Positions 17,316 to 34,596 of a DNA stretch of 64,000 bases are shown piece after piece. Positions within the stretch are counted from its first letter, which is position 1, and every line of letters begins with the position of its first letter. The stretch lies in assembly GCF_014396385.1 (NCBI RefSeq), contig NZ_CP060716.1:124001-188000 (forward strand), read 5' to 3'. The translations under genes and the position numbers were made by a program. Source of the stretch: Leucobacter denitrificans. Its GTDB lineage: Bacteria > Actinomycetota > Actinomycetes > Actinomycetales > Microbacteriaceae. A model generated the notes under the pieces. The model worked only from the letters and a program-made list of their open reading frames with translations. It was not told where the DNA came from and made no database searches.

Positions 17316-17347
17316 GATCGGCCCTGACTTTTGCGTCAAGGCCGATC
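17316..17347. repeat. Stem-loop preceding HTH cassette copy 1
   Basis: GATCGGCC pairs with GGCCGATC (outer 8 bp), with a further TGAC/GTCA inner stem. Seven bases, including TTT, separate it from the invariant GGGTCCCTGCGTAGA at 17355. No plus-strand gene lies upstream, so it is not the terminator of a visible gene. Comparable structures stand before copies 2 and 3. Confidence 0.7.
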
Positions 17348-17354
17348 GGATTTG

Positions 17355-17795
17355 GGGTCCCTGCGTAGAAAGTTCTCAAACCCTACTCCGAAGCTGAAAT
17401 TGTTGATTTCTCGCTGGAAACGAGGGGTATACCGGGTATCGCAGCGGGCCGGTAACACCCCGATTCAGGACGTTCGAGGGCCCTGTGTCAGGAGGATTGG
17501 GAAACCTCAAACCTTTCTCACCCCCGCAGAAGTAGATCGACTTATCGACGATTACCTCACTGGTTTCAGCGTCGGATACCTCGCTCAGAAGTATGGTGTG
17601 CACCGTGCAACCGTCTCGAAACATCTCACCCGGAGCAACGTCGTGCGCCGCCAGCACGGCCCCACAATCGAGGAAGCCGCAGAGATAGTGAAGCTGCACG
17701 GCGGTGGCATCTCAATGCGCGCTATCTCACGCAAGATGTTGATGATTGCGTTTCAAAGCAATATCGATTCGACGATCGCCTTCAGCGTTCCGTAA
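17355..17795 (+). pseudogene. HTH cassette copy 1, 3' truncated
   Basis: First of three related copies of a small double helix-turn-helix reading frame (others at 28699 and 31491). The first motif is FSVGYLAQKYGVHRATVSKHL; the second would be SMRAIARTLGVGRKQVR. In this copy sequence agreement stops at about 17735, in the middle of the second motif. The frame then runs 20 unrelated codons to a stop at 17795. The frame is open from the invariant GGGTCCCTGCGTAGA at 17355, but no good start codon with a ribosome site is visible; TTG at 17403 is the only in-frame candidate common to the copies. The HTH pattern resembles the C-terminal DNA-binding parts of resolvase/invertase-type recombinases. The broken end abuts a broken ankyrin gene on the other strand. 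Confidence 0.7.
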
Positions 17796-18077
17796 CGAAC
17801 GCCATGCTCCGCGGCGGATGAGTTCATCCACGACCTCCGATGAGGCGCCGAGCCAAGCTGCCTGGTGAAATGGTGTGAACCAAGAGTCACCAGCGATTCT
17901 CCATTGATTTACGCTCAGAAATCGCTCTCGATCAAGAAGACGAAATACCGCCTCCCAATTGCCGACTTTGGCAACGTCCGCAAGACGATTGATGTTGTCG
18001 ACGTGACTCTCCCTGAGAAGTCCCGCCTCTATCACGCCTGGCCAATCAACTTCCAACTGCCACCCTACGCTCGACAT
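17727..18077 (-). pseudogene. Ankyrin-repeat protein, 3' truncated
   Basis: A 116-residue fragment whose C-terminal half holds one recognisable ankyrin unit (WFTPFHQAAWLGASSEVVDELI followed by a turn and NAEGDRRIDIALKRNHQHLA). The family normally continues with more repeats after HxHL. Here the frame stops just as it reaches the broken end of HTH cassette copy 1 (about 17730). The ATG at 18077 overlaps the end of an upstream open frame, as in an operon. Probably the surviving 5' part of a gene cut by the event that also truncated the cassette. Function unknown. Confidence 0.5.
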
Positions 18078-18241
18078 TCGGACGGTGTAACCAGAACTAC
18101 TGCTGCCGGATCTACATCACTTGCCGTTGCAAGAGTCGGCAACTCGGCAGAATCAAGACCAGCAAGTTCAAGTGCTGCCTGTCCAGCTAAGTGAGCCGAA
18201 CGCACAGACGGGACTGCTGCACGGATAGGTGACAGTTCTAG
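18065..18241 (-). pseudogene. C-terminal fragment of an unidentified gene upstream of the ankyrin gene
   Basis: A minus-strand frame of about 58 codons with an actinobacterial-looking composition (AHLAGQAALELAGLDSAELP, then TASDVDPAAVVLVTPSE). It has no start codon and opens at an in-frame stop at 18242. Its stop lies 13 bases inside the ankyrin gene, a typical operon overlap. I read it as the tail of a lost gene. I do not recognise the family. Confidence 0.3.
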
Positions 18242-18423
18242 TCACGCCGCCAGTGCGACGGCACTCGATCTCCTCTGCAACCCGTCAGACCTTGACCGAA
18301 CCTTTTGCGACCGGCGCACGGCAAAGTAGCGCTTGGTACTTCTCAACGGCTTCTGCCATTCGCTCTACATGTCTGGGTCGGAAGACGAACTGCTTGAAGG
18401 TCGGTGAGTAAAGGCAGTAGCGC

Positions 18424-18652
18424 GGCGATCTGCGGAGCGCTGTCGATGTGATCCGACTCTGACGCAAGACGCTCGGCACCATCAAGACGAACCTGTCTTG
18501 GGCGTTCGCCTATAACGTGGCAGCGATTCCGGTCGCAGCGTTCGGTATGCTTAACCCAATGCTCGCCGGCGATGGCGTTCTCGAGCGTCTTCGTCGTTGG
18601 CAACAGCCTGTGTCTGCGCGGCTTCACGTCCATCACCAAGCAGGCTGCCTAG
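18424..18652 (+). pseudogene. Remnant of a CopA-type copper P-type ATPase C-terminus
   Basis: Translates as GDLRSAVDVIRL, a TGA stop (18460-18462), RKTLGTIKTNLSWAFAYN, VAAIPVAAFGMLNPMLAG, then after a frameshift near 18571 MAFSSVFVVGNSLCLRGF and a stop. This is the last two membrane helices of CopA-type ATPases. The stop and the frameshift show it is dead. The upstream part of the gene is gone. It lies immediately before the live CPH-type ATPase and shows an earlier copper ATPase stood here. Confidence 0.85.
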
Positions 18653-18690
18653 CACACCGGGCCGGGTCGCCCAGCCGAGAGAAGACACCC

Positions 18691-20802
18691 ATGACGAAGC
18701 CACACGCGGGCTACGGGCACGACCACGGGCCTCACAGTGGCCACGAGCACCACGAGCACCACGAGCGCACTGGGCACGAGGATCACGATGGTCACGTTGG
18801 CCATATGGGCCACTGCGGTCACGGCGATCATGTGGCACAGTTTCGGCGCCTGTTCTGGGTGAATCTCGTGCTCGCGGTGCCAGTCGTCGCGTTCTCGCCA
18901 ATGTTTGCCATGATCCTCGGCTATTCAGTACCAGGTTGGGCCACCTGGATCGCACCTGTTATCGGCACCGTGATGTATGTCTGGGGCGGCGCCCCATTCT
19001 TGACGGGCGCGGTGAGCGAAATCAAGGCCCGCAAACCGGGCATGATGTTGCTGATCGCCCTGGGCATCACCGTGGCCTTCCTCGCATCGTGGGGCGCAAC
19101 ACTCGGGCTGTTGCATCACGAGCTCGAATTCTGGTGGGAACTCGCGCTGCTGGTGGTCATTATGCTGCTCGGGCACTGGATCGAGATGCGTTCGCTCGCC
19201 CAGACCACTTCTGCGCTCGACTCCCTCGCGGCGCTTTTGCCCGACGAAGCCGAGCGGGTCGAGGGTGAAACGGCCGTCACGGTGAGCCCGGCGGAGTTGC
19301 GCGTTGATGATCTCGTGATCGTGCGCCCGGGCGGCAGCGTGCCGGCCGACGGCATGATAGTTGACGGACGTGCGGCCATGGATGAATCGATGATCACCGG
19401 CGAATCGCACCCCGCGACCCGCAGCGAGGGCGATGCGGTGACCGCCGGCACGGTCGCGACCGATTCGGGGCTGCGGGTCAGAGTCACCGCCATCGGAGAC
19501 GACACGACACTTGCCGGCATCAACCGACTCGTCGCCGACGCACAGAACTCGTCGTCTCGTGCGCAGCGCATCGCCGACCGGGCTGCAGGGTGGCTGTTCT
19601 GGTTCGCCCTCGCCGCAGCGGTCATCACCGCGATCGTTTGGATGCTCGTGGGCGACCCAGATGTGGCCGTGATGCGCACCATTACCGTGCTAGTGATCGC
19701 CTGCCCGCACGCGCTCGGCTTGGCGATTCCGCTCGTGGTTTCCATCGCCACCGAGCGCGCGGCTCGCGGCGGGGTGCTCGTGAAAGATCGTCTCGCGCTC
19801 GAGACGATGCGCCAAGTCGACGCGGTGCTCTTCGACAAGACGGGCACACTCACCAAGGGCGAACCGGTTGTCACCGGTGTCGCGCCAGTCGGCGATGTTG
19901 ACGAGCACGCCCTGCTGGCCCTGGCCGCCGCGGCCGAGGCCGACAGCGAGCACCCCCTCGCCAAAGCGATCGTCGCCGCGGCGAGCGACCGAGGCCTCAG
20001 CCTTGCACCCGCCACCGGGTTCTCTTCTTCACCGGCGGTTGGCGTCACCGCCACCGTGGCCGGCCACGAGATTCGGGTCGGTGGGCCCCGGCTTCTGGAA
20101 GAAACCGGGCAGCCCGAGATCGGTGCAGCCGATGCCTGGCGGGCCGAAGGTGCCATCATTCTGCATGTCGTTCGTGACGGAATCATGATCGGCGGGCTGA
20201 AGCTCGCCGATGAGATTCGCCCGGAGTCGCGCGATGCCCTCGCCGCACTGCATCGGCTCGGTGTTGAGGTCGTGATGATCACCGGTGACGCTGCAGCCGT
20301 CGCGGGGGAGGTTGCTCGCGAACTCGGTATCGACCGTGTGTTCGCGGGCGTGCGCCCCGAAGATAAGGCCGCGAAGGTGGCCGAGTTGCAGCACGAAGGC
20401 ACGGCTGTCGCGATGGTCGGCGACGGTGTCAACGATGCCCCCGCCCTCGCGCAAGCCGATGTTGGTATCGCTATCGGGGCGGGCACCGATGTGGCGATCG
20501 CGTCGGCAGGGGTGATCCTCGCCAGCTCTGACCCGCGTTCGGTGCTCTCAGTGATCGAACTCTCACGTGCTGCCTACCGCAAGATGAAACAGAACCTGTG
20601 GTGGGCGGCGGGGTACAACCTGATTTCGGTGCCGCTTGCCGCCGGTGTGCTCGCCCGCGTCGGGTTCGTGCTGCCGATGTCGGTCGGAGCGATTCTGATG
20701 TCGCTGTCGACGATCGTCGTGGCGCTGAATGCCCAGCTCTTGCGCCGCATCGATCTCAGCCCAGAAGCCAGCACTCGCGCCGTGCTCGAACGCACGAACT
20801 GA
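18691..20802 (+). CDS. copB: Copper-translocating P1B-type ATPase, CopB-like (CPH motif)
   Basis: Membrane pump exporting copper or silver. From the ATG at 18691 the protein has 703 residues. The first 47 hold 16 histidines, a cytosolic metal-binding tail typical of CopB, with no CxxC domain. Membrane motif VIACPHALGLAIPLV carries CPH instead of CPC, the P1B-3 class. The phosphorylation site DKTGTLTKGEP, the HP dipeptide (EADSEHPLAKAI) and GDGVNDAPALAQADVGIAIG are intact. The open frame reaches further upstream only through the CopA remnant, so that extension is rejected. csoR follows 24 bases downstream. No CsoR-type operator is obvious upstream. Confidence 0.93.
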   Translation: MTKPHAGYGHDHGPHSGHEHHEHHERTGHEDHDGHVGHMGHCGHGDHVAQFRRLFWVNLVLAVPVVAFSPMFAMILGYSVPGWATWIAPVIGTVMYVWGGAPFLTGAVSEIKARKPGMMLLIALGITVAFLASWGATLGLLHHELEFWWELALLVVIMLLGHWIEMRSLAQTTSALDSLAALLPDEAERVEGETAVTVSPAELRVDDLVIVRPGGSVPADGMIVDGRAAMDESMITGESHPATRSEGDAVTAGTVATDSGLRVRVTAIGDDTTLAGINRLVADAQNSSSRAQRIADRAAGWLFWFALAAAVITAIVWMLVGDPDVAVMRTITVLVIACPHALGLAIPLVVSIATERAARGGVLVKDRLALETMRQVDAVLFDKTGTLTKGEPVVTGVAPVGDVDEHALLALAAAAEADSEHPLAKAIVAAASDRGLSLAPATGFSSSPAVGVTATVAGHEIRVGGPRLLEETGQPEIGAADAWRAEGAIILHVVRDGIMIGGLKLADEIRPESRDALAALHRLGVEVVMITGDAAAVAGEVARELGIDRVFAGVRPEDKAAKVAELQHEGTAVAMVGDGVNDAPALAQADVGIAIGAGTDVAIASAGVILASSDPRSVLSVIELSRAAYRKMKQNLWWAAGYNLISVPLAAGVLARVGFVLPMSVGAILMSLSTIVVALNAQLLRRIDLSPEASTRAVLERTN

Positions 20803-20826
20803 CCTCACGCAGCCCAGGATCAGCAC

Positions 20827-21135
20827 ATGTCATCAACCACTGAATCGCACGCGTCGCACCACGGGTATATCGGCGATAAGAAGCGCTACCTGCAGCGCAT
20901 GAAACGAATCGAAGGTTCGGCCCGGGGCATCGCGAACATAATCGACGAAGAGCAGTACTGTATCCACATTCTGACCCAGGTCAGTGCGCTCACCCGCTCG
21001 CGGCAGGGGGTGGTGACGGGGCTCGATGATCACCTGAAGCACTGTGTGCTCGATGCCGCCAAGCTTAGCGACGAGGCCGCCCACGAGAAGATTCAGGAGT
21101 CCACTGCCGCGGTCAACCGGCTGATCCGATCGTGA
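20827..21135 (+). CDS. csoR: CsoR-family copper-sensing repressor
   Basis: All-helical metal-sensitive repressor (formerly DUF156), 102 residues. The Cu(I) ligand set Cys-His-Cys is present as C45 (YCIHIL), H69 and C73 (DDHLKHC). R-rich helix KKRYLQRMKRIEGSARGI gives the DNA contact surface. It follows the CPH ATPase on the same strand and should derepress it when copper rises, as known for CsoR. It converges on the TPC ATPase gene. Confidence 0.93.
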   Translation: MSSTTESHASHHGYIGDKKRYLQRMKRIEGSARGIANIIDEEQYCIHILTQVSALTRSRQGVVTGLDDHLKHCVLDAAKLSDEAAHEKIQESTAAVNRLIRS

Positions 21136-21157
21136 CTGTGTGAGTCGGCCTCGCGGG

Positions 21158-23083
21158 TTAGCCTACCGGCACTTCCCGCCGAGCAAGGCTCTCGCGCCGC
21201 GCACCCCGGTGCGCTCGGAGCGCTCGGAGCGCCGACAGAATGGCCACAAGGTCAACAATCTCTTGCAGCAGCGCTCCCACCACCGCCGGCAAATAGCCGA
21301 ATGCGGCGACGAGCATCAAACCGACTGAGATGATGATGCCCATCCAGATCGACTGCAGGGCGATCTGCACCGTGCGCCGCGAGACATAGGCCACATCTGC
21401 CACTCGCGCGATGTCGTTCGAGGTGATCACCGCCGCTGCTGACTCGCTCGCGACCGTTGCACCCCTGCCCGCCATCGCAACACCGACATCGGCGGCCGCC
21501 AGCACCGGGGCATCATTGATCCCATCGCCGACCATGAGTACGGGTCTCGGCCGCATCGCCTGCACAATCCGCACCTTGGTCTGGGGAGTGGTCTCAGCGT
21601 GCACCGTCTGAATGTCGACCGCGTGTGCGACAGACTCCGCGGTCGACGTGATATCACCGGTCACCATCGCGATCTCGGCTACGCCTGCTCGGCGAAGACG
21701 GGACACCGTGTCTGCAGACTGCTCACGAATCGGGTCGGACAAGATGATCACTCCGGCGAGCTCGTCACCGACCGATACGTAGACGGCCGTCTCCCCAGCT
21801 GAGAGTACGGGTCGATCGATCGGCCCGGTCACCTCTTCGATAAATGAGGGCTTGCCCACTCGCACCGAAGTGCCGTCTGCCAGGGAGGCGAGGACACCGT
21901 TTGTTGCCACCTCGTCGGCCGTCACCACTTCGGGAAGCTCAAGTTGCTGTGTGCGTGCCGATGCCACGATCGGATCGGCGAACACGTGCACGGAGTACTG
22001 CTCGGCGGCGGCCGCGAGCTGCAGCGTCTCGTCTACGGTGCGAGCAGCAGGGTGAATCTCGACGACGTCGGCTTTACCTTCGGTCAAGGTGCCGGTCTTG
22101 TCGAATGCGACTGCACGGACCCGGGCGAGCACCTCTAACACGCCACCGTCTTTGATGATGACGTTGAGCTTTGCCGCGGAACTCATCCCGCCCATAAACG
22201 CAACCGGGGTGGCGATGAGCAGCGGGCACGGCGTCGCCACGACGAGCACCTCGGCAAACCGCACCGGATCCCCGCTGAGAAACCACGCGAAGCCCGCAAT
22301 CAGCAATGACACAATGGTGAACGGCACCGCATAACGGTCGGCGAGTCGCACCATCGGTGCCCGGGAGTCCACGGCCTCCTCGACCAACCGTACGATCGAG
22401 GCGTAGTTCGAATCGGCTGCCACCTTCTGCGCGCGCATCGTGAAGCTCGTCGTGCTGTTGACCGTTCCAGAAAGCAGTGGGTCGCCCGCGTGGTAGTTCA
22501 CCGGGATCGGTTCACCGGTCACGGATGATTCATCAATCGTCGCGTGATCCGATAGGAGCACCCCGTCGACGGGGAGGATCTCTGAGGAGCGCACCAGCAG
22601 TTCGTCGCCGACTTTCACCTCTTCGATCGCGATGCGTTCGACCTCACCTGTTACCGGGTGAATTCGACCCGCGAATGCTGGGGCTCGGTTCAACAGTTGG
22701 TCGAGTTCTCGGCTCGCGCGGCGAGCGGCGAGGTCTTCGAGTGCTTCCCCTCCGGTGAGCATCAACGCGATGATGAGCCCCGCGACATATTCCTGTACGG
22801 CGAGTGTCGCGATCATGGCGATGACCGCAAGAATGTCGAGCCCCCAATGCCCGCGCATCAGATCTTTGAACATGTCGATCGCGGTGATCACGATCACGAT
22901 ACCGAGCACCAAGTATGCGGTGACCCCGAGAGCCATCTCTGCGCCGGTCAACCAGAGCATAACCCCGGTCGCCAAACCGACGAGCACGAACATCATGAGC
23001 TTGCGGGTGCGAAGAAATTCCCCCGTCGATGACATTGCGTGTGACGCTTCCGAGGTACGTGGGGCGATGGTCTGGGCTGGCAC
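21158..23083 (-). CDS. P1B-type heavy-metal ATPase with TPC motif
   Basis: Metal-exporting ATPase, 641 residues, without an N-terminal metal-binding domain. The membrane motif reads VVATPCPLLIATPVAF, which aligns TPC with the usual CPC. FDKTGTLTEGKADV and MVGDGINDAPVLAAADVGVAM are intact. The short N-terminus with four helices before the actuator domain (SSVTGEPIPV) recalls the CoaT/CtpD group of cobalt, nickel or iron exporters, but TPC is not the standard SPC of that group. Metal unknown. It starts 10 bases after the Crp/Fnr gene and is co-transcribed with it. Confidence 0.9.
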   Translation of the reverse strand: MPAQTIAPRTSEASHAMSSTGEFLRTRKLMMFVLVGLATGVMLWLTGAEMALGVTAYLVLGIVIVITAIDMFKDLMRGHWGLDILAVIAMIATLAVQEYVAGLIIALMLTGGEALEDLAARRASRELDQLLNRAPAFAGRIHPVTGEVERIAIEEVKVGDELLVRSSEILPVDGVLLSDHATIDESSVTGEPIPVNYHAGDPLLSGTVNSTTSFTMRAQKVAADSNYASIVRLVEEAVDSRAPMVRLADRYAVPFTIVSLLIAGFAWFLSGDPVRFAEVLVVATPCPLLIATPVAFMGGMSSAAKLNVIIKDGGVLEVLARVRAVAFDKTGTLTEGKADVVEIHPAARTVDETLQLAAAAEQYSVHVFADPIVASARTQQLELPEVVTADEVATNGVLASLADGTSVRVGKPSFIEEVTGPIDRPVLSAGETAVYVSVGDELAGVIILSDPIREQSADTVSRLRRAGVAEIAMVTGDITSTAESVAHAVDIQTVHAETTPQTKVRIVQAMRPRPVLMVGDGINDAPVLAAADVGVAMAGRGATVASESAAAVITSNDIARVADVAYVSRRTVQIALQSIWMGIIISVGLMLVAAFGYLPAVVGALLQEIVDLVAILSALRALRAHRGARRESLARREVPVG

Positions 23084-23093
23084 GGTGCTGTTC

Positions 23094-23822
23094 TCAGTCT
23101 CTCTTCGAGAGGGTTGAGAGCGCGGTGAGCGCGGTCACATCAGTGATCGTGATCCGCCCCTGTTCCTGTTGTGAGATCACCCCGGTGTCGGTGAGTTTGC
23201 GAAGTTGCCGACTGAGGGACTCTGGTGTCGTGGACAGGAGCGAAGCAATGTCCTTCTTTGCGAGCGGCAGCGTCACGTAGATAGCTCCTCGCGGCCCTGG
23301 CGTCGCAGGGAGCGAGAGCAGGTAATCGGCGAGACGAGAGCTCACGTTTCCCAAGATGACAGAAGCCAGCCGCGCCTCAGTATCATCCAAGCGCTGACTC
23401 ACTCCTTGCAGCATGCGCAGCCCGATGCTCGGATGCTTCTCGACGAGACGCCCGAGATCGGCATGACGGAACACGCACAGTTCGGTATGCACGAGCGCTT
23501 CTGCTGCGTGATCGGGTCTCGTGCCGGTGAGAAACGCGGATTCTCCGATGAAGTCGCCCGGACCGAGGACCCGGATCACCTGCTCGTGCCCAGCCGCACT
23601 TGTACGAGCGATCTTCACCTGACCGGTGTGCACCACCATCAACTGCGACATATCCGAGCCTGCTGTATACGCCTGCTCGACAGCGTCTAATCGGACGGTA
23701 CGTGCAAATCCCGCAACTTCCACTTGCTGCGCATGTGTGAGCCCTTGAAACAGTGGTACACGGGCCACGCAGAGATCATTTGCTGGATCAGCATCCACAT
23801 CGGTTGAAACAGCCAACGGCAT
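23094..23822 (-). CDS. Crp/Fnr-family transcriptional regulator
   Basis: Cyclic-nucleotide-binding-like domain (residues about 15-135; VPLFQGLTHAQQVEVAGFAR, GQVKIARTSAAGHEQVIRVL, GDFIGESAFLTG) followed by a winged helix (LPLAKKDIASLLSTTPESLS, with RQLRKLTDTGVI). The ATG at 23822 has AAGGGAAGG right upstream; the frame further upstream looks non-coding. An FNR-type four-cysteine cluster is absent, so oxygen sensing by Fe-S is unlikely. It sits in a metal-ATPase operon, and a Crp/Fnr-type palindrome lies before the copZ-like gene at 28349, its most likely target in this window. Confidence 0.9.
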   Translation of the reverse strand: MPLAVSTDVDADPANDLCVARVPLFQGLTHAQQVEVAGFARTVRLDAVEQAYTAGSDMSQLMVVHTGQVKIARTSAAGHEQVIRVLGPGDFIGESAFLTGTRPDHAAEALVHTELCVFRHADLGRLVEKHPSIGLRMLQGVSQRLDDTEARLASVILGNVSSRLADYLLSLPATPGPRGAIYVTLPLAKKDIASLLSTTPESLSRQLRKLTDTGVISQQEQGRITITDVTALTALSTLSKRD

Positions 23823-23875
23823 CCTTCCCTTCCCTTCCCTTCTAGTATGGCGACTCGTGGCACAACACACGCGCT

Positions 23876-24544
23876 TCAGCTGAAGCCAGGGGTGGCGCGT
23901 GCAGTGATGTACGCGTGTGGCGTCCGCGGGTTCGAGCGCTGCCCGATCACCTCGAACCCGGCGTGGGTGAGGGCTTCGACCATTTTGTTCATCGGCCACC
24001 GGTATGCGGCGGCGATCGGATGGTCGAATGCCTCTAGCCGCGGCCCCGCGAAAAAGGACATCAGCAGCGATCCGCCGTCACCCAGCCGAGTGCGCAGTGT
24101 TGCGAGCGCGTGTAGGAGCTCTTCTGAGCTCATGTGAATGGTCGAATACCAGGCGAGGATCCCGCCCCAGCGGGTCTCGCAACGGGCGAGATCTTCGATG
24201 GAATCGTGATGGAACACAACCGCGGGATGTCTGGCTCGGGCAATCGTGATGAGGCGATCCGATGGCTCGAGCCCTTCCACCGTGTGTCCGAGGCGTGCGA
24301 GGTGACCGGTCCAACGCCCGGTACCCGCGCCGACATCAAGAATGGGGCCATCGACTGCCGCGGCCCACGGCTCGATGACCGCACGGTCAGGGTCATCCGG
24401 TGAGATCTCGGCGCCGAGAATGCCCTCGATATCAACCTCAGGCGACCCGTATGCATCGGCCACCCGGTTTATTGAGGCCACAGGATCAGACGTCCGTGCT
24501 GCTGTGAATACGGCGTCCGTCGGTGCCTCAGGCCGCTGGGTCAT
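23876..24544 (-). CDS. Class I SAM-dependent methyltransferase
   Basis: Rossmann-fold methyltransferase, 222 residues. Motif I is PILDVGAGTGRWTGHLARLG, with the acidic post-I loop VEGLEPSDRLITIAR and a motif IV-like GGILAWYSTIHMSSEEL. Substrate unknown; the family includes small-molecule and metalloid methylases. Its ATG overlaps the stop of the upstream oxidoreductase by four bases, so the two are coupled. It lacks the cysteines expected for an ArsM arsenite methylase. Confidence 0.85.
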   Translation of the reverse strand: MTQRPEAPTDAVFTAARTSDPVASINRVADAYGSPEVDIEGILGAEISPDDPDRAVIEPWAAAVDGPILDVGAGTGRWTGHLARLGHTVEGLEPSDRLITIARARHPAVVFHHDSIEDLARCETRWGGILAWYSTIHMSSEELLHALATLRTRLGDGGSLLMSFFAGPRLEAFDHPIAAAYRWPMNKMVEALTHAGFEVIGQRSNPRTPHAYITARATPGFS

Positions 24545-25446
24545 GGTTCGATGATCACTTTGCCGGCAGTGTGCCCAGCCTCCACCATGGCGACGGCCTC
24601 CGCAGCCCGATCGAGACTGTACCGGTCCGTCACCTGCGGGTCGACGAGACCGTACTGGGCGACGCCGGTGACCTTCTCGAGCCCTTCACGCGTGCGCACC
24701 ACCGCTACGCCACCGAGTTGCTGCACGGTGGTCGGGTCTGCGGTACTGATGATGACGCTCGGGTTTTTGGCGACGACCGCGAGATCACGAAGCGCCTGCC
24801 CACCGACCAGGTCGATGAGCACATCAACACCCTCCGGCGCGATGGCACGCACCCGGTCAGCCGCACCCTCCCCGGAGGCAACGAACGTCGCACCGGTCGA
24901 CTCCACCAGTTCCTGCTTCGCTGCACTGGCCACACCGATGACCGTGAACTTGTGCACATTGCCGATCTGCGCCGCCATCAGCCCGACCCCACCTCCGGCG
25001 CCAAGAATCAGCATCGTCTGACCAGGTTCCAGCTCGATCTGATGCGTCACGTCATACGCAGTCGCCCCTGCGACAGGCAGTGCTGCAGCGTCAGCAAAGG
25101 AAAGCTCTTCGGGCTTCTGGACAGTTTGTGCCGCATCCAACACCGTGTGCTTCGCGAACGTTCCCTGTCCTTTGGCCGCGAGGCCGAGCACCATGTCACC
25201 GACAGCGAAGTTCTCGACCTCTGCGCCTACGGCGGTGACGACACCGGAGGCCTCTCGGCCCATCGGTGCGGGAAGCGGCCAGTGGGAGTCCGTCTGCCCC
25301 GCACGGATCTTCCAGTCAGCAGGGTTCACCCCGGCCGCTTTCACTTCGATCGCGAGCTCTCCAGGCCCAGGCGCCGGAGCGGGGCGTTCAACGAGTTCCT
25401 GCGTCTCGGGGCCGCCATAGGCGGCGAAGACCAGCGCTTTCGACAT
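24541..25446 (-). CDS. NADP-dependent quinone-oxidoreductase-type dehydrogenase (MDR family, zinc-free)
   Basis: Medium-chain reductase, 301 residues. GroES-like N-terminus (PAPAPGPGELAIEVKAAGVN, PADWKIRAG), nucleotide loop ILGAGGGVGLMAAQIG, and a C-terminus typical of the zinc-independent quinone reductase subgroup (AGHTAGKVIIE). GAGGAGAA precedes the ATG. Probable role is reduction of a quinone or enone in stress defence (inference). It lies 35 bases after the cupin gene and overlaps the methyltransferase. Confidence 0.88.
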   Translation of the reverse strand: MSKALVFAAYGGPETQELVERPAPAPGPGELAIEVKAAGVNPADWKIRAGQTDSHWPLPAPMGREASGVVTAVGAEVENFAVGDMVLGLAAKGQGTFAKHTVLDAAQTVQKPEELSFADAAALPVAGATAYDVTHQIELEPGQTMLILGAGGGVGLMAAQIGNVHKFTVIGVASAAKQELVESTGATFVASGEGAADRVRAIAPEGVDVLIDLVGGQALRDLAVVAKNPSVIISTADPTTVQQLGGVAVVRTREGLEKVTGVAQYGLVDPQVTDRYSLDRAAEAVAMVEAGHTAGKVIIEP

Positions 25447-25481
25447 TATTGACTTCTCCTCATTCTCCAGGTGAGTGACAC

Positions 25482-25913
25482 TTACGTGGTTGCCTGTGGT
25501 GGAGCGTCTTCACCCGAAGCCTCTGCCGCATCAGCGAGTTCCTTCGTGGCATACTCCGCGTCAATTGCGTGCTCCGGAGGTGAATAGACGGTGTAGAGCA
25601 CCAAAGGCTCATCGCCAGTGTTGCGGAAGTTGTGGCGAGTACCGGCCGGGACAGCGCACAGGTCGCCAGCATCAACGGTGTGCGTCTCGCCGTCAAGGTC
25701 GGCCTCTCCGCTGCCCGACACAAAACTCAGCAACTGGTCGGTGGTGTCATGCACCTCGTCGCCGACCTCCCCGCCCACCGGAATCGTCATCGCAACGAGT
25801 TGGGAATGCTTTCCCGTCCAGAGCACCTGACGAAAATTCATGTTTGCTTTCGCGACCTCGTCGATGATGAAGTGCGTCGCCTTCTCGCCGACGCTGAACT
25901 GGTTCTCACTCAT
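25482..25913 (-). CDS. Cupin-domain protein
   Basis: Small beta-barrel protein, 143 residues. The metal-site motifs are partly visible: GDEVHDTTDQLLSFVSGSGE (one His, with the next positions changed) and GDLCAVPAGTRHNFRNTGDEP with a His. AAGGA lies six bases before the ATG. Substrate or ligand unknown. It stands between the CPG ATPase and the oxidoreductase genes, 15 bases downstream of the former, and is probably in the same transcript. Confidence 0.82.
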   Translation of the reverse strand: MSENQFSVGEKATHFIIDEVAKANMNFRQVLWTGKHSQLVAMTIPVGGEVGDEVHDTTDQLLSFVSGSGEADLDGETHTVDAGDLCAVPAGTRHNFRNTGDEPLVLYTVYSPPEHAIDAEYATKELADAAEASGEDAPPQATT

Positions 25914-25928
25914 GTGTGTGGTCCTTGC

Positions 25929-27968
25929 TCAAGATGGAAGTTCGGATGAACTCTGGGCCGTGGCTGGTTCGACCGGGCGGCCTGTTTCATGTGCGGCTCG
26001 GGCGCGTTCACTCCTCGACAACGCAGTGGCTCCTTGGGTGTTGCGCAGCAGGCGCATCGCGTTGAGGATTACGATGAGCACCGATCCCTCGTGCACGAGC
26101 ATGCCGATAGCCATCGTGACACCCCCTGCGAAGACCCCGACGAGCAGCACGACAACGGTGATGAGCGCGATCCAGATGTTCTGGCGCATGACGTTCACGG
26201 TGCGTTTGGCGAGGCCAATTGCTTCGGGCAGTTTCAAGAGGTTGTCGCCCATCAGGGCAATGTCTGCCGTCTCCACGGCCACCGCTGAGCCCGCTGCACC
26301 CATGGCAACACCAATGTCGGCGGTCGCGAGGGCCGGGGCGTCGTTCACGCCGTCGCCCACCATCGCGACCGTGTGCCCCTCGCGCTGCAAACGCGCGACA
26401 GCGTCGAGCTTGTCCTCGGGTAGCAACGAAGCATGGATCTCATCGATACCGACCGCCTCACCGATGGCTTCGGCGACAAGGCGCGTATCTCCGGTGAGCA
26501 TCACCACCTTCCGCACCCCGCCAGCGTGCAAGCGCCTGATCATCTCGGGGGCATCCTCGCGGATCGTATCTGCGACACCGATTACGCCAAGCACGCTCTC
26601 ATCGACCGCGACAATCATGGGGGTCTTGCCTGCCGCCGCCAGTTTGTTCGCAGCCACAGCCGCCCCCGCGTCGTTCACGATCCCGTACTGTTCGAGCAGC
26701 GGCACGTTACCGATGAGTACCCGCTTGCCGTGAGCGTCGGCCACGATCCCCTTGCCCACGACCGGTGTGACCGATCCCGGAAGATCCTCGGGGGCCACTC
26801 CTTCTTCTCGTGCGGTGTCGAGGATCGGGCGGGCAAGTGGGTGCTCGGACCCTGCTTCTGCGGCGGCTGCCCAGCGAAGCACCTCGCGCCGATCCGCTTC
26901 AGGATTGAGCACAACGATGTCGGTGAGTACCGGGCGGCCCTCGGTGAGAGTCCCCGTCTTATCGACTGCGACGGCCGAGATCTTGGCCGAGGTTTCGAGG
27001 TACTCGCCGCCCTTGATGAGAATCCCGTTGCGGGCCGAGCGGCCGATTCCCGCTACGATCGCCACGGGAATCGAGATGACGAGCGCGCCCGGGCAACCGA
27101 TCACGAGCAACGTGAGGCCGAGCACTACGTCACCAGAGATGAGGCCCGCCGCAAGCGCGAGTACCATCACCGCGGGCGTGTACCACTCCGAGAATCGGTC
27201 GATGAATGCCTGCGTTTTCGCTTTCGCATCCTGCGCTTCTTCGACACGGTGAATGATGCGCGCGAGCGTCGTGTCGGCTCCGATGCCGGTCGCCATGACC
27301 TGTAGGAATCCGCCCCGCGAGATCGTGCCTGCAAACACGTGATCTGACTTCGTCTTTTCGACCGGGATCGACTCACCCGTGATCGATGCCTCGTCGATCG
27401 CTCCGGTGCCTGACACGACCTGCCCGTCGACGGGAACTTTCGCTCCGTTTTTTACGAGCACGATCTCGCCCATGTGCACCTGATGTGCGGCGATCTCGAC
27501 CTGCTCACCGTCGCGCATCACGACTGCAACGTCGGGGGCCACTGCGACCAACTCAGCGAGCGCTGCACGGGTCTTGTTCATCGTGCCGGCTTCGAGTGCG
27601 TGACCGATCGCGAAGAGGAACGTCACGGCGGCAGCTTCCCAGAAGTTGCCGATGAGTGTCGCGCCGATCGCTGCAATCGATACGAGCAGGTCGATACTGA
27701 TGAACTTTACGAGCAGTGCCCGGACGGCCTTCACGACGATTCCGTACCCCGCGACAATTGCTGCGGCGAGCATGAACGCGTTCGCAAGGGTAAACACATG
27801 ACCAGAACCGTGGGCGTGTTCGCCAGCGTCGATCCACCAATGCGGACCGACCGTGACGTTCCAGCTGCCGCCGAAGAGCTTTTCGACGCCGAACGACACG
27901 AGAATGAGGAGGCCCGAGACAACGGGAATGAACCAGTTGCCATACCGCCACTTACGGAACGCGTTCAC
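25929..27968 (-). CDS. P1B-type heavy-metal ATPase with CPG motif
   Basis: Metal ATPase, 679 residues. Membrane motif VIGCPGALVISIPVA has CPG where ZntA/CadA have CPC. VDKTGTLTEGRPVL, SEHPLARPIL and MVGDGVNDAPALATADIGVAMG are intact, so it should be active. There is no fused HMA domain, but the next gene upstream encodes a separate CxxC chaperone. The N-terminus holds a histidine-containing periplasmic loop (GPHWWIDAGEHAHGSGH). Metal unknown; the ZntA-like actuator and CPG motif point to zinc, cadmium or lead as guesses. The start is GTG with GGCGG upstream. Confidence 0.9.
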   Translation of the reverse strand: MNAFRKWRYGNWFIPVVSGLLILVSFGVEKLFGGSWNVTVGPHWWIDAGEHAHGSGHVFTLANAFMLAAAIVAGYGIVVKAVRALLVKFISIDLLVSIAAIGATLIGNFWEAAAVTFLFAIGHALEAGTMNKTRAALAELVAVAPDVAVVMRDGEQVEIAAHQVHMGEIVLVKNGAKVPVDGQVVSGTGAIDEASITGESIPVEKTKSDHVFAGTISRGGFLQVMATGIGADTTLARIIHRVEEAQDAKAKTQAFIDRFSEWYTPAVMVLALAAGLISGDVVLGLTLLVIGCPGALVISIPVAIVAGIGRSARNGILIKGGEYLETSAKISAVAVDKTGTLTEGRPVLTDIVVLNPEADRREVLRWAAAAEAGSEHPLARPILDTAREEGVAPEDLPGSVTPVVGKGIVADAHGKRVLIGNVPLLEQYGIVNDAGAAVAANKLAAAGKTPMIVAVDESVLGVIGVADTIREDAPEMIRRLHAGGVRKVVMLTGDTRLVAEAIGEAVGIDEIHASLLPEDKLDAVARLQREGHTVAMVGDGVNDAPALATADIGVAMGAAGSAVAVETADIALMGDNLLKLPEAIGLAKRTVNVMRQNIWIALITVVVLLVGVFAGGVTMAIGMLVHEGSVLIVILNAMRLLRNTQGATALSRSERARAAHETGRPVEPATAQSSSELPS

Positions 27969-28019
27969 GAATGTGCCGCCTTTCGAATTGGTGAACTTAG
28001 TGCGTGAGGAGCCGTTTGG

Positions 28020-28256
28020 CTAGAACGCGGAGGCCTTCGACTTATAGCCGGCCTTATCGACAGCAGCAATGAGATCGTCGACGGAACTTCTTGTCTCATC
28101 GTGGTCGATCTCAACGCGACCCGAGGCGAAGTGCACCGTCACGTTCTCGACGCCATCGAGCTTGCCGACCTGCTTCTCGATCTTGGTCACGCACGACGGG
28201 CACGAGAAACCCTCGGCGCGCAGCAGAGTGTGGGTGGTGTCAGTAGCGTTCGCCAT
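28020..28256 (-). CDS. CopZ-like heavy-metal-associated (HMA) chaperone
   Basis: Free ferredoxin-fold metallochaperone, 78 residues. The metal loop is GFSCPSCVTKIEKQV (C19, C22) and VTVHFASGRVEIDHDETRSS follows the fold. AAAGGA lies six bases before the ATG. First gene of the cluster reading into the CPG ATPase 51 bases on. An FNR-type palindrome and a -10-like TAGTCT lie upstream at 28362-28321. Copper is usual for this family, though zinc is possible with a CPG partner. Confidence 0.92.
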   Translation of the reverse strand: MANATDTTHTLLRAEGFSCPSCVTKIEKQVGKLDGVENVTVHFASGRVEIDHDETRSSVDDLIAAVDKAGYKSKASAF

Positions 28257-28320
28257 GATGAGTCCTTTCGCTTCACCCCGAAACGGGGATCGACCAGGAG
28301 GTTCCTGGCCTTCACGACCC

Positions 28321-28363
28321 AGACTATTGTGTTGACAGAGCCTCAGCCTTGACCTAGATCAAG
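28321..28363 (-). promoter_or_regulatory. Crp/Fnr-type box and -10 of the copZ-like/CPG ATPase operon
   Basis: CTTGACCTAGATCAAG at 28348-28363 is a near-perfect palindrome close to the FNR consensus TTGAT-N4-ATCAA. On the minus strand a TAGTCT hexamer lies at 28326-28321. If transcription starts about seven bases after it, the box centre (28355.5) falls near -41.5, the class II activator position. The likely binder is the Crp/Fnr protein at 23094-23822. Confidence 0.65.
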
Positions 28364-28442
28364 TCGTGTTCGGAGCTCCTCTCTGTGGCTCACCAGCTAC
28401 TTGGGTGCTGTGAGTCGCTTCTTGGTTGATATGCTGGGCGCC

Positions 28443-28639
28443 ATGAAGGTCTACAAGACCGAACTGATCCGTCAGCAAGGCCCTGGCGGACGGTCGAGCA
28501 GGTCGAGCTTGCGACCCTCGAATACGTGTGGTGGTGGAACCATGAGCGGCTCCACGGGGAACTCGATATGCGTACTCCGATCGAGGTCGAACAGGCGTAC
28601 TACGTTGAAACCGAGACGCTTCTGTCACCGACCGGCTGA
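28443..28639 (+). pseudogene. IS3-family transposase C-terminal remnant
   Basis: Reads KVYKTELIRQQGP, then after a one-base deletion in a C run near 28484, WRTVEQVELATLEYVWWWNH, ERLHGELDMRTPIEVEQAYY and a stop. This is the end of an IS3-group DDE integrase. The rest of the element is missing and the frame is broken. A strong stem-loop and HTH cassette copy 2 follow directly. Confidence 0.85.
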
Positions 28640-28647
28640 CAGGGAAA

Positions 28648-28688
28648 TAGCCCCTGACTCAGGCAACTAAACACCTGATCAGAGGCTA
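28648..28688 (+). terminator. Terminator-like stem-loop before HTH cassette copy 2
   Basis: TAGCCCCTGA pairs with TCAGAGGCTA (one C-A mismatch) and the inner TCAGG with CCTGA, about 14 pairs around a 10-base loop. CTTTCTCTCA follows. It lies just after the IS3 remnant stop and 10 bases before the invariant GGGTCCCTGCGTAGA at 28699. Confidence 0.7.
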
Positions 28689-28698
28689 CTTTCTCTCA

Positions 28699-29145
28699 GG
28701 GTCCCTGCGTAGAGAGTTCTCAAACCCCACTCCGAGACTAACGTCGTTGATTTCTCGCTGGAAACGTGGGGTGTACCGGGTATCGGAGCGGGTCGATGGC
28801 GCACCGATTCACGACGTTCGAGGGCCTGTCGTCAGGAGGATTGGGAAACCTCAAACCTTTCTCACTCCCGCTGAAGTTGATCGCCTGGTCGATGATTACC
28901 TCACTGGTTTCAGCGTCGGATACCTAGCTCAAAAGTATGGTGTGCACCGCGCGACAGTTTCGAAGCACCTTACCCGCAACAACGTCGTGCGCCGCCAGCA
29001 CGGGCTCACGACCGAAGAGGCTGCAGAGGCATTGAAGCTGTATGGTGGCGGAATCTCGATGCGCGCGATCGCCCGCACGCTCGGTGTCGGCCGCAAGCAA
29101 GTGCGTGTGACACTGATGGCCGCAGGCTCACTGACGAGCCGATGA
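28699..29145 (+). CDS. HTH cassette copy 2 (double helix-turn-helix protein)
   Basis: Complete-looking copy. From the invariant 15-mer the frame reads GSLRREFSNPTPRLTSLISR, then WKRGVYRVSER, a variable stretch, and RRIGKPQTFLTPAEVDRLVD. Two helix-turn-helix units follow (VGYLAQKYGVHRATVSKHL and MRAIARTLGVGRKQVRVTL). TTG at 28747 is the only plausible in-frame start and has no ribosome site. An AGGAGG at 28834-28839 encodes Arg-Arg inside the frame. Resolvase-type HTH is the nearest fold; no catalytic domain is present. It may be a regulator, or the DNA-binding tail of a lost recombinase. See copies at 17355 and 31491. Confidence 0.65.
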   Translation, partial: GSLRREFSNPTPRLTSLISRWKRGVYRVSERVDGAPIHDVRGPVVRRIGKPQTFLTPAEVDRLVDDYLTGFSVGYLAQKYGVHRATVSKHLTRNNVVRRQHGLTTEEAAEALKLYGGGISMRAIARTLGVGRKQVRVTLMAAGSLTSR

Positions 29146-29448
29146 TCTCGCGGGTTGTATCGAAGCAACTTCGAATGTCGGTACTGAGCCGTAGGATTGC
29201 GAACTAGGTGCCATTGAGAGAAATAGCTATGAGTTTTGATTCACCTATGCGAACCTAAGGACCGGGTACACCTGCCCCGGATAGAGAAAATCCCCGCAAG
29301 AGAAATCACTGGCCAATTGGCGCTTCATCGCCCCACTGGGACTCCTCATCACGCTCGCGGGCGGTGCTCTTCTCCTGTCCCAACACACACGCGCCTGAAC
29401 ACGTAAGGACCACCGGAGTGAGAGAGGTCCGCTGAGGTGTTGAGCATT
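29146..29448. other. Gene-free stretch with a possible membrane-helix remnant
   Basis: No complete gene. On the plus strand an untitled frame without a start codon (about 29288-29397) ends SLANWRFIAPLGLLITLAGG then ALLLSQHTRA and a stop, a single C-terminal membrane helix. It could be a decayed gene tail. Nothing else is recognised. Confidence 0.3.
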
Positions 29449-29907
29449 TTATTGTTCGAGTCGGATTTGGGCGATGACCTCACCGTACTCGGTCTCACCG
29501 ATGGGTTCAAACCCGACAGCACGGAAGAATCGCTCCGGCCCGGCCTCCCCAGCTTCGTACATGACATTCACGTAGTCGAATCCTCGGCGATGAGCCTCGT
29601 CAAGTAGATGCTGTATCGCGAACCGTCCAATTCCTCGGGCTTGGTCATCGGCTTCAACATTGATCCGCCAAAGCACTGAACGGAACTCCTCGCGCACTGC
29701 TTCCGGGTCGAAGTTCGCGCTAATGAACGCGACCACTCGATCATCTTCGAGTACGACACGCTGCCAAAAGGTTCTGGGGTCGGCAACGGCGCTCGCGAGC
29801 CCGTAACTGACTGGGGCGAGGAACTCTTCTTGCCCTTCCTTGAGGAGCATCTGGTTAACTGCGAGGATCGTTGCGGGAGAAAGTTCCTCGATTCTCAGGT
29901 TCATCAT
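29449..29907 (-). CDS. GNAT-family N-acetyltransferase
   Basis: Acetyl-CoA-dependent acetyltransferase, 152 residues. The acetyl-CoA loop is VEADDQARGIGRFAIQHLLD (R/Q-x-x-G-x-G/R pattern), followed by EAHRRGFDYVNVMYEAGEAG and FFRAVGFEPIGETEYGEV. AGGAGG lies five bases before the ATG. The start codon overlaps the stop of the 60-residue gene upstream (ATGA), which in turn overlaps the HspR-like gene, so it is in a regulator-led three-gene operon. Substrate unknown. Confidence 0.85.
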   Translation of the reverse strand: MMNLRIEELSPATILAVNQMLLKEGQEEFLAPVSYGLASAVADPRTFWQRVVLEDDRVVAFISANFDPEAVREEFRSVLWRINVEADDQARGIGRFAIQHLLDEAHRRGFDYVNVMYEAGEAGPERFFRAVGFEPIGETEYGEVIAQIRLEQ

Positions 29908-30086
29908 TGTGCCTCCTGTTCAGGGTCATCCACAGGGACAGGTATCTGTTGGTCAATCCAATCAGCCTCGTTCACAAGGGCTGGAGCGGTATCACAGTGC
30001 TCGAACGCTTCGACCGCGACACTTTGGTCTATCGGGGTGAGTTGATCTAACCGATCAGCTTCTGGCACTTCGCGTTTCTCTGTCAT
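29904..30086 (-). CDS. Small acidic protein, unknown
   Basis: 60 residues, rich in Asp and Glu (MTEKREVPEADRLDQLTPID, ending PVPVDDPEQEAQ), no membrane segment or known motif. It is locked between two genes by ATGA overlaps on both sides, which strongly supports translation. I do not recognise it. Its place between an HspR-like regulator and an acetyltransferase, opposite hsp20, suggests a stress-related role at most. Confidence 0.6.
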   Translation of the reverse strand: MTEKREVPEADRLDQLTPIDQSVAVEAFEHCDTAPALVNEADWIDQQIPVPVDDPEQEAQ

Positions 30087-30373
30087 TTGTGGTCCCTCCT
30101 TACGTTTCGTAAACGTTCGTTTTCGTCCTGCAAGTTAAGCACCATGGCGATACCTGCGAGGTTTACCCCGTCCCGCAGCAGCACGATCACCCTGTCAATA
30201 CGATCAAGGTCTCTTTTGCTATACCTGCGCGTACCGCCGGCTGTGCGGGCAGGAGCAACAAGCCCACGGCTTTCGTACATGCGAAGCGTCTGCACACCGA
30301 CACCCAGAAGTTCTGCCGCAACAGAAATCCCGTACACCGGCAGGCTGTACTGCTTGTCGCTCTCACCACTCAC
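30083..30373 (-). CDS. HspR-like MerR-family regulator
   Basis: 96 residues. The N-terminal MerR winged helix YGISVAAELLGVGVQTLRMY, ESRGLVAPARTAGGTRRYSK and the wing RDLDRIDRVIVLLRDGVNLA are typical of HspR, as is the short C-terminal helix without an effector domain. HspR represses heat-shock genes with DnaK as co-repressor; here the divergent target is hsp20 at 30479. A canonical HAIR inverted repeat was not found between them. First gene of the operon with the 60-residue protein and the acetyltransferase. Confidence 0.85.
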   Translation of the reverse strand: MSGESDKQYSLPVYGISVAAELLGVGVQTLRMYESRGLVAPARTAGGTRRYSKRDLDRIDRVIVLLRDGVNLAGIAMVLNLQDENERLRNVRRDHK

Positions 30374-30387
30374 TGTTCTCCACCCAC

Positions 30388-30416
30388 TTGCATCGAGTTA
30401 AATGACATGCTATAAC
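30388..30416 (+). promoter_or_regulatory. Promoter of hsp20 (TTGCAT-N17-TATAAC)
   Basis: A vegetative-type promoter: TTGCAT at 30388-30393, 17 bases, TATAAC at 30411-30416, about 62 bases before the hsp20 ATG. GCAT and ATGC arms inside it (30391, 30407) could be part of an operator, but this is weak. Confidence 0.55.
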
Positions 30417-30478
30417 AAATCTAAATCGGTTGCCATAGATTGTGGGGTGGCCGAGACAACAGATGAAAGGAGAACACC

Positions 30479-30907
30479 ATGTATCTGCGTACTGATCCGT
30501 TCCGTGAGTTTGATCGTCTTACTCAGCGAGTCTTTGGTGGGCAGGGGACGTCCGAACAGCCCACTGTGATGCCGATGGATGCGTGGCGTAAGAACGATAA
30601 CTTTTACGTCGAGTTCGACCTGCCTGGTGTCAAGGAAGAGAGCATCGAGCTTGATGTGGAACGTAATGTTGTCACGATCAAGGCAGAACGACCCGCATTG
30701 GATACCGATATTGAACGACTCGCCTCAGAGCGGCCGCGAGGGTTCTTTACCCGGCAGCTCGTGCTCGGAGACAATCTCGATACGGAACGTATCGAGGCGA
30801 ACCTTGACGGTGGCGTACTGACGCTGGTCATCCCGGTCGCTGAATCCGCGAAGCCCCGCAAGATCGAAGTCGGCAAAGGCGGATCACACAAAGCAATCGC
30901 CTCATAA
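30479..30907 (+). CDS. Hsp20/alpha-crystallin small heat-shock protein
   Basis: ATP-independent holdase chaperone, 142 residues. The alpha-crystallin domain runs from about 28 to 128 ([72 protein letters not shown]). The C-terminal IxI/V anchoring motif is only approximate (RKIEVGKGG). AAAGGAGAA precedes the ATG. It is divergent from an HspR-like regulator and is probably controlled by it. Confidence 0.94.
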
Positions 30908-31425
30908 CCTCACAAGAAAGCGCCCCATGGTGGCACAGTTGAACCGCGCACCTTCCCCGCCCCTGCTTGGGTGGCCTCCACACAGGCAAGGGCGGGCGTG
31001 GGGTTGTGATATCAGGGACATCACAATCGAAACGCACCACCACCAGAGCTTCATGGGTCGGGATTGCCCCAGCCCTCGACGCCCGGTGCGAGAAGTGCTC
31101 CTCCAAAACATCCAGATCATTACCTTGGCTGTCATGAGAGCACTGTCCCTGCGCATCTACGATGCCGGTGCCGGTGCCGATGAAGCTTACGAAGCACTAC
31201 ACAGTCGGGTGCGCGCGAGCAACAGGTTCTAGCACTCGAAACACTTGTATGGCGTTTTGGGAGATCTGCTTGGCGATGTGCGATCACAGCGGCAGAAACT
31301 GGACCAGCTCGCAACGGCTCACGCATCCAACCGGTCACTGGCATTCGATAACGGCTGGCCGAATTGCCTGGCAAACCACGCCTTGCAACATAACCCTTGA
31401 GCGGGGCGGCAGAGCTGATCAATAA
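30908..31425 (+). other. Stretch with degenerate coding-like sequence
   Basis: No intact gene. A plus-strand frame from about 31134 reads MRALSLRIYDAGAGADEAYE, ALHSRVRASNRF and stops at 31232. In another frame LYGVLGDLLGDVRSQRQKLD and QLATAHASNRSLAFDNGWPN run from about 31247 to a stop near 31400. This looks like one short helical protein broken by a frameshift. Family not recognised. Confidence 0.3.
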
Positions 31426-31484
31426 GGGAGAGGTTCAAACCGAATCAAGCGCACTTACTCTTGTTCAAGGTTTGAACCTCTCCC
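31426..31484 (+). terminator. 16-bp perfect stem-loop before HTH cassette copy 3
   Basis: GGGAGAGGTTCAAACC at 31426-31441 pairs perfectly with 31469-31484 around a 27-base loop and is followed by ATTTCC. Six bases later the invariant GGGTCCCTGCGTAGA of cassette copy 3 begins at 31491. Confidence 0.7.
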
Positions 31485-31490
31485 ATTTCC

Positions 31491-31934
31491 GGGTCCCTGC
31501 GTAGACAGTTCTCAAACCCCAGCCCGAAGCTGAAATCCTTGATTTCCTGCTGGAAGCGAGGGATGTACCGTGTGTCCCAGCGGGTCGTTAACGACCCAAT
31601 TCAAGACGTGCGAGGGCCCTGTGTCAGGAGGAATGAGAAACCTCAAACCTTCCTCACCTCTGCCGAAGTAGACCGCCTGGTCGATGACTACCTCGCTGGT
31701 CTTAGCGTCGGATATCTTGCACAGAAATATGGGGTGCATCGTGCGACAGTCTCGAAGCACCTCACCCGAAACAACGTTGGTCGTCGCCAACGCGGACTCA
31801 CAATTGACGAAATCGCTGAAGCCGTGAAGCTTCACGGAGGCGGCATCTCTATGCGCGCAATCGCACTCACGCTTGGAGTCGACCGAAAGCAGGTGCGGGC
31901 ATCGCTCGTCGCCGCGGGCGCATTGTCTACTTAG
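31491..31934 (+). CDS. HTH cassette copy 3 (double helix-turn-helix protein)
   Basis: Third copy of the cassette, full length. GSLRRQFSNPSPKLKSLIS opens the frame at the invariant 15-mer. RRNEKPQTFLTSAEVDRLVD and the two HTH units (VGYLAQKYGVHRATVSKHL, MRAIALTLGVDRKQVRASL) match copy 2. Many differences from copy 2 are silent or conservative with no indels, so the coding sense has been maintained. TTG at 31539 is the candidate start; no ribosome site is visible. The sequence after the stop differs from that after copy 2. Confidence 0.65.
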   Translation, partial: GSLRRQFSNPSPKLKSLISCWKRGMYRVSQRVVNDPIQDVRGPCVRRNEKPQTFLTSAEVDRLVDDYLAGLSVGYLAQKYGVHRATVSKHLTRNNVGRRQRGLTIDEIAEAVKLHGGGISMRAIALTLGVDRKQVRASLVAAGALST

Positions 31935-32169
31935 TGCTGAGACTTCACCGCTCAAGCATTTGTCTGTGGGGCAATAGGCGATCGCGTATCGGCGGTTCTC
32001 GAAGTATCACGCTCGGGAGTGCAGAGTCACATTTCGACAAAGTTATCTTGGCGCATGTTGCACTAAGAGCCCCCGCCTGCCGGGGAACGAGTCGTGTAGC
32101 CATCTCGGACAGTCACACGCATGCTGAAGTTCAGCGAGGGGAAGTAGGAGCTGTGGCTACCAGTGGTTC
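31935..32169. other. Gene-free stretch after HTH cassette copy 3
   Basis: No gene seen. The bases after the cassette stop share nothing with those after copy 2, so a common right end of the element is not visible here. Confidence 0.3.
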
Positions 32170-34527: not shown

Positions 34528-34546
34528 CCCTATCTCCAGAAACCGA

Positions 34547-34570: not shown

Positions 34571-34596
34571 ATGTGTGGAAAGAGGAGGCGATCGCA

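Follow-up and report, generated by a model that had tools for sequence, protein, structure and literature searches.

Why do three related reading frames in one bacterial genome begin at the same 15-mer, each a few bases behind a different hairpin? The 64,000-nucleotide stretch of Leucobacter denitrificans DNA analysed here (contig NZ_CP060716.1, positions 124,001 to 188,000; referred to as the window) carries GGGTCCCTGCGTAGA at 17355, 28699 and 31491, and the preliminary description of it suggested either an element that recognises terminator-like hairpins as targets or a cassette moved by a recombinase acting at the 15-mer. Very probably, the copies are left ends (LEs) of elements stacked at tRNA-His, inserted there by a large serine recombinase whose crossover appears to lie within its own gene, so that integration would sever the double helix-turn-helix (HTH) end of that gene. 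The puzzling hairpin-targeting cassette would thereby be explained as the anatomy of a tRNA island. The features concerned are as follows (C1 coordinates lie beyond the window; G, L and P numbers are our handles for genomes, loci and proteins).

17316..17347, unstranded: hairpin, taken from the empty sites in G006 and G003 to be the native terminator of tRNA-His, now parted by the island from that tRNA; it forms the left half of attL, the left attachment junction
17355..17733, + strand: LE1, left end of element 1, with a GGGT core and then a truncated, severed HTH frame; its left edge is common to otherwise unrelated loci and homology ends at 17733
28648..28688, unstranded: terminator-like hairpin ahead of LE2, within 51 bp that have no match in the relatives compared
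28699..29142, + strand: LE2, left end of element 2, with a double-HTH frame; assigned by its match to an LE of L. soli
31397..31490, + strand: relict right end (RE) of element 2, consisting of recombinase C-terminal codons (KGEVQ..LVQGLNLSHF) that form the hairpin 31426-31484; assigned by the L132 match and the frame
31491..31931, + strand: LE3, left end of element 3, with an intact double-HTH frame of 147 codons; assigned by homology, open frame and structure model
C1:209032: RE of element 3, with the recombinase open reading frame (ORF) C1:207089-209095 alongside
C1:209031-209106, - strand: tRNA-His, from a tRNA call

Left ends, right end and target

All three 15-mers are exact and on the + strand in a search allowing up to three mismatches, and the 2.4 Mb genome holds no further copy at up to one mismatch. 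Three matches at up to three mismatches are within chance, as 35 of 100 shuffles reached that number; the exactness of all three, together with the long homologies that start there, exceeds chance. Copy 1 is 85% identical to copy 2 over 379 bp and copy 3 is 78% identical to copy 2 over 435 bp, both alignments running from the first base. The earlier claim of a two-HTH frame behind every 15-mer stands for copies 2 and 3 and fails for copy 1, in which homology breaks off at about 17733. The structure model of copy 3 also contains both units, at a mean pLDDT (predicted local distance difference test) of 69.9. A sequence search of the PDB gave no significant match, and Foldseek with the double-HTH model gave none at E <=0.001, its weak matches being the CRISPR-repeat binding protein 2lvs (E 6.6e-3) and the Tc3 transposase DNA-binding domain (4.4e-2).

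The LE is not confined to this genome. A DNA search matched 11 of 100 genomes including the source genome, one of them marginally (33 bp), and in a scan with each species represented by one genome 16 LE loci appeared in Agrococcus, Nesterenkonia, Brevibacterium, Microbacterium, Demequina, Zimmermannella, Leucobacter and unnamed bins; plasmid and phage collections contained no match to the LE. One-mismatch 15-mers without an LE match (in G002, G006, G020, G031, contig 26 of G032, G033, G042 and G044) were not counted. When LE loci of several genera are aligned, similarity begins at the same base, at GGGT, and the 5' side is unrelated or resembles an RE. On the 3' side similarity between genera continues for kilobases, and the LE is therefore taken to be one end of a larger element.

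The other end was reached through database relatives of the frame. In P0010, P0028 and P0046 a serine-recombinase C-terminus stands ahead of the GSLRR or GFLRR motif, and the first 90 residues of P0046 match 16 of 54 genomes of the genus (E <=0.001), in the source genome (G000) at C1:208814-209035. Similarity thus extends 5' of the 15-mer into a longer gene, which the preliminary description had named as an outcome that would speak against its cassette, and in uncut form the frame of the copies appears to continue a recombinase gene. The recombinase frame C1:207089-209095 contains a coding hairpin and then enters tRNA-His, which lies on the opposite strand. Its protein carries PF00239, PF07508 and PF13408, i.e., the Resolvase, Recombinase and zinc-ribbon domains, and by this domain content it belongs with the large serine recombinases. 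As the RE and recombinase adjoin tRNA-His at C1:209032, the whole island would span about 67.7 kb, from 17355 in the window to that point. Like a typical tRNA island it has an intact tRNA at one end with the integrase gene on board; no displaced tRNA fragment lies at the other end, where only about GGGT is common. We conclude that the island separates tRNA-His from its terminator and does not duplicate the tRNA.

The same arrangement of RE and recombinase beside tRNA-His occurs in G045, G048, G034 and G030 and in records of Brevibacterium, Microbacterium, Demequina, Zimmermannella and Nesterenkonia. In all eight genomes where one contig carries both LE and tRNA-His (G000, G045, G048, G037, G102, G106, G107, G110; for four of them the shared contig was deduced from contig numbers), the LE lies upstream in the same orientation, and seven of the eight carry a recombinase tail at tRNA-His. 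We also observed a second right-end type (L163, L015), in which a hairpin CCCCTGCCCCC..GGGGGCAGGGG precedes GGGT; it lies beside tRNA-His in G037 and ahead of the internal LE of G048.

A single match to the tRNA-His 3' end (up to two mismatches) is present in 52 of 54 genomes of the genus, and none in G001 and G010; 30 of the 52 loci were fetched for comparison. The comparison with empty sites that had been proposed at the outset was informative: G006 and G003 hold an orthologue of the PIG-L-type gene (window 15984-16703), the hairpin, tRNA-His and the right-flank gene, with no island. The hairpin of copy 1 is therefore read as the native tRNA-His terminator, and the target of the elements as the 3' end of tRNA-His. 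Comparison of 21 LE left flanks with these 30 loci gave matches to the left side of tRNA-His for L002, L005 and L012, to the L. soli RE for L003 and L028, to recombinase sequence for L022, and to other places for L027 and L029. The LE of L. salsicius (L027:4572-5003) adjoins an IS3-type transposase gene at TTTTGGGGG, a junction that is possibly a secondary attachment site.

Hairpins ahead of the left ends

The preliminary description was right that each copy follows a strong stem-loop (each beats 60 of 60 base-composition shuffles), that the three are unrelated in sequence, and that by position they stand 7, 10 and 6 bases away, a distance that varies between 4 and 10 nt with the drawing of the hairpin foot. 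Overall, 20 of 23 LE loci have a hairpin 3-9 nt ahead that beats all shuffles (repeats of one place, i.e., L006, L007, L014, L025, L027, L031 and L032, and the weak or partial loci L013 and L016-L018 having been dropped). This frequency is what an element targeting terminator hairpins would produce. However, such hairpins belong to the tRNA-His locus itself. At 27 of the 30 fetched loci the hairpin beats 60 of 60 shuffles (L115 reaches 59 of 60; L116 and L121 fail); five of the 30 are recombinase-type REs, and 23 of the other 25 carry a hairpin 4-10 nt from the core, at like spacing and with no LE. Insertion at tRNA-His would therefore leave a hairpin just ahead of the LE. Five of the 20 LE hairpins (L003, L008, L019, L023, L028) read as RE sequence, the L015 hairpin matches the second right-end type, and L009 has an LE with no hairpin, the other outcome that the preliminary description had named as one that would refute it. 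Together with the empty sites, these observations make hairpin recognition very unlikely, and we regard the hairpins as mostly transcription terminators.

Group IIC introns insert in linkage with terminators, so that a group II intron or another retroelement could also be considered, by a superficial resemblance. Rfam gave no group II intron match in 16000-33500 (E up to 1), its sole match being a sub-threshold microRNA family on the RE hairpin, and the linked mover is a serine recombinase; an intron origin is scarcely conceivable.

The hairpin of copy 3 has a different source from that of copy 1. In L. soli (L132), 186 bp are 99.5% identical to window 31303-31488 and are followed by GGGTGG..tRNA-His in place of LE3. 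This hairpin is accordingly assigned, by sequence match, to the right end of another element, the relict RE of element 2.

The recombinase gene and its proposed double-HTH end

Among 43 distinct tRNA-His 3'-end contexts, 16 carry a recombinase tail, and all 16 reach GGGT in phase 0, although the sequences are related and not independent (a narrower motif had counted 12 REs, which this count replaces). The LE reads GGG TCC CTG in that same phase, and in all 15 of 15 loci its frame runs without a stop from base 1 through at least 112 codons. The ratio of nonsynonymous to synonymous polymorphism (pN/pS) along the frame is 0.38 for codons 1-16 and then 0.34, 0.13 and 0.15 (66 pairs from 12 loci, L015, L030 and L032 having been dropped).

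Joined forms exist in databases. Residues precede the motif in 24 of the 120 LE relatives listed; by reading, 11 of these were judged in-frame recombinase-like tails and 13 not. Within the best 120 of 4665 recombinase relatives, two proteins continue from all three recombinase domains into LE-like sequence: P0226 (46% over 70 residues) and P0196 (37% over an 82-residue stretch). In P0241 a zinc ribbon is followed by both HTH units, with 38% identity over 141 residues of the LE; this protein matched 23 of 396 genomes, with its halves apart in G000 and G658, and no listed match spans both halves, an absence that is weak with up to four candidates scored per genome. The phase of the REs, the open LE frame and these in-frame joins together indicate that integration appears to sever the double-HTH end of the integrase.

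Taking the boundaries, target, empty sites, stacking, phase and natural in-frame joins from these comparisons, we propose the following course. The uncut, circular element would have a single frame running from the catalytic domain through the recombinase domain and the zinc ribbon to a C-terminal double-HTH module, and the crossover site attP (core about GGGT) would lie within this frame. The recombinase would join attP to the tRNA-His 3' end (attB), leaving the tRNA whole. The RE and a truncated recombinase would then lie beside tRNA-His, and the severed double-HTH frame would end up at the far side, behind the old terminator of the tRNA. The integrated recombinase would end in tRNA-antisense codons (here GWTTGLEPATTGTTSRCSTN) or at an early stop, and later elements would insert at the junction of RE and tRNA and build an array. 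The RE hairpin may act as a replacement terminator, and loss of the HTH module may change the behaviour of the integrase. The preliminary interpretation is partly supported: its idea of a recombinase acting at the 15-mer comes close, in that the 15-mer is the attL end attributed to a serine recombinase.

Alternatively, the double-HTH frame could be an independent small gene, a regulator or directionality factor that merely sits beside attP, the recombinase joins being incidental. The LE frame does stay open in integrated ends and relics, and serine integrases are described as requiring a separate directionality factor for excision. Conservation and a pN/pS below 1 nevertheless begin at codon 1, ahead of any ATG, GTG or TTG in copies 2 and 3, an argument weak alone because it involves 16 codons and an attachment site is also constrained. 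The phase match in 16 of 16 REs and natural joins in more than one subfamily add to it, and we consider an independent gene unlikely.

Several observations weigh against the proposed course, and one of them also favours the independent gene: no intact full-length fusion of recombinase and double HTH of the GSLRR subtype was found among the relatives searched. P0226 resembles the LE for about 70 residues and then departs from it, P0196 contains a single HTH, the catalytic part is missing from P0241, and full-length P0222 resembles the LE weakly (25%, E 0.01; best Pfam HTH E 0.0064). In many relatives the recombinase is broken or has shrunk to its tail (e.g., G045, G102, G103, G107, G110), and tRNA-His of G037 has a different right end without a recombinase tail. 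The junction of RE and LE3 reads TTTCC|GGGT here and TTTG|GGGT in L. soli, so the exact core, placed at about GGGT, is uncertain by a base or two; the junction here is out of frame, as is that of L019. The 51 bp ahead of LE2, including the copy 2 hairpin, have no source in the relatives compared. L009 (the same place as L027) and L022 lack a hairpin of this kind and L033 is borderline (2 of 60), 13 of 21 LE left flanks have no match to the 30 tRNA-His loci, and the best match of the L029 flank is the other side of tRNA-His, reversed.

Further candidates for joined genes were rejected: the long ORFs of L138 and L051 run through tRNA antisense into an unrelated frame, and in L022, where recombinase-like sequence precedes the LE, no ORF of at least 300 residues links both.

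The design may extend to other tRNAs. Loose regular expressions sorted the tails of the best 120 of the 4665 recombinase relatives into 46 ending at G (which may also be a cut contig), 18 tRNA-His-like, 44 other tRNA-like and 12 other. At 18 related recombinase loci the tRNA called is Ala in seven, Val in five and His in two, with none called in four (L138 and L040 being one place, as are L139 and L052), and in seven Ala/Val loci (L138, L051, L139, L141, L142, L146, L154) the recombinase frame continues into the tRNA antisense strand. Such antisense tails may directly mark island ends and the targeted tRNA in protein databases. In plasmid and phage collections, P0222 matched recombinases alone, all of them under 60% identity and with less than 80% of the query covered. 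LE-like frames occur in 43 of 396 genomes of the order (including the source genome) and 25 of 110 genera, absences being weak with up to ten candidates scored per genome. Many distant ones start with GTG..CCT; by eye a hairpin precedes L186 and L198 and none precedes L185, L188, L192 or L193. This distant family (L184-L200, mostly with the GTG..CCT start) is possibly the tRNA-Ala/Val counterpart of the tRNA-His element.

More tentatively, and somewhat less likely than not, insertion could be a one-way lock: the HTH tail would be needed for, or would steer, integration of attP into attB, and once it is amputated the integrated copy would stay until an intact relative arrives, a design carried to tRNA-His, tRNA-Ala and tRNA-Val. 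Stacked arrays and relict ends would be accounted for by such a lock. Serine integrases are used in genome engineering, and an HTH tail that is removable by nature would offer a testable approach to directionality.

Genes altered by integration have precedents. In mycobacteriophage BPs the attachment site reportedly lies inside the repressor gene, so that integration alters the repressor product; the likeness is an attachment site within a gene whose product changes, the gene here apparently being the integrase. The integrase of myxophage Mx8 belongs to the tyrosine family. Its attP lies in the coding sequence and integration supplies a new 3' end, after which activity is retained and specificity altered, and no severed HTH module is described for Mx8 in the accessible part of that paper (PMC6070905). 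For BPs, the part available describes integration-dependent immunity (PMC4557955). Archaeal suicidal (SSV-type) integrases have attP in the integrase gene, are split on integration and target tRNAs, but they belong to the tyrosine recombinases, and one of their two fragments holds the catalytic part; the available text of a 2021 review calls self-disrupting recombinases exclusively archaeal (PMC8371274). The domains found here are instead those of a bacterial serine recombinase, which would lose a C-terminal double-HTH module. Actinobacterial integrative and conjugative elements (ICEs) share the use of serine recombinases at tRNA genes, which is called rare (eight Mycobacterium recombinases at tRNA-Leu and phage phiRSM1); the portion available describes no split integrase, and the targets here are tRNA-His and, in relatives, tRNA-Ala and tRNA-Val (PMC3218068). 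The accessible part of PMC12884075 has nothing on self-disrupting integrases. Splitting of an integrase by its own integration is thus already known (SSV-type, Mx8), and a serine recombinase split in this way was not found in the literature searched, with most subscription papers outside its reach, which suggests that this version is new. Our observations point to serine integrases of bacteria that have their gene cut when they integrate, a kind of self-disruption that the 2021 review gives to archaea only.

Stacked elements and their cargo

Sequence matches divide the island into three integrative elements stacked at tRNA-His, with the three copies as their left ends.

17355..28698, + strand: element 1, with Cu/Cd/Zn P-type ATPases, a CsoR-type repressor and a CopZ-like gene (the last as read from the sequence); stretches are 94-99% identical to islands of Nesterenkonia, Brevibacterium and Microbacterium
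28699..31490, + strand: element 2, with GNAT, a MerR/HspR-type regulator and Hsp20; both ends match L. soli
31491..64000, + strand: element 3, continuing past the window end to the RE at C1:209032

Element 1 matches the islands of other genera up to 28647, where the source genome departs from L028, L136 and L166, and its recombinase end is read as lost after that position. An LE of L. soli also agrees with LE2 at 99.3% identity over 1420 bp; as L. soli matches both ends, and its RE adjoins tRNA-His, element 2 is delimited as 28699-31490, to which element 3 would have been added at the right end. The cargo of element 3 at window 38882-51414 looks catabolic (thiolase, CoA-transferases, acyl-CoA and aldehyde dehydrogenases), gene annotation having covered part of the 67.7 kb island. 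Left of the island, about 280 bp within window 16718-17010 are matched at about 76-83% in many genomes of the genus, mostly elsewhere in them, which is unusual for the small predicted gene there.

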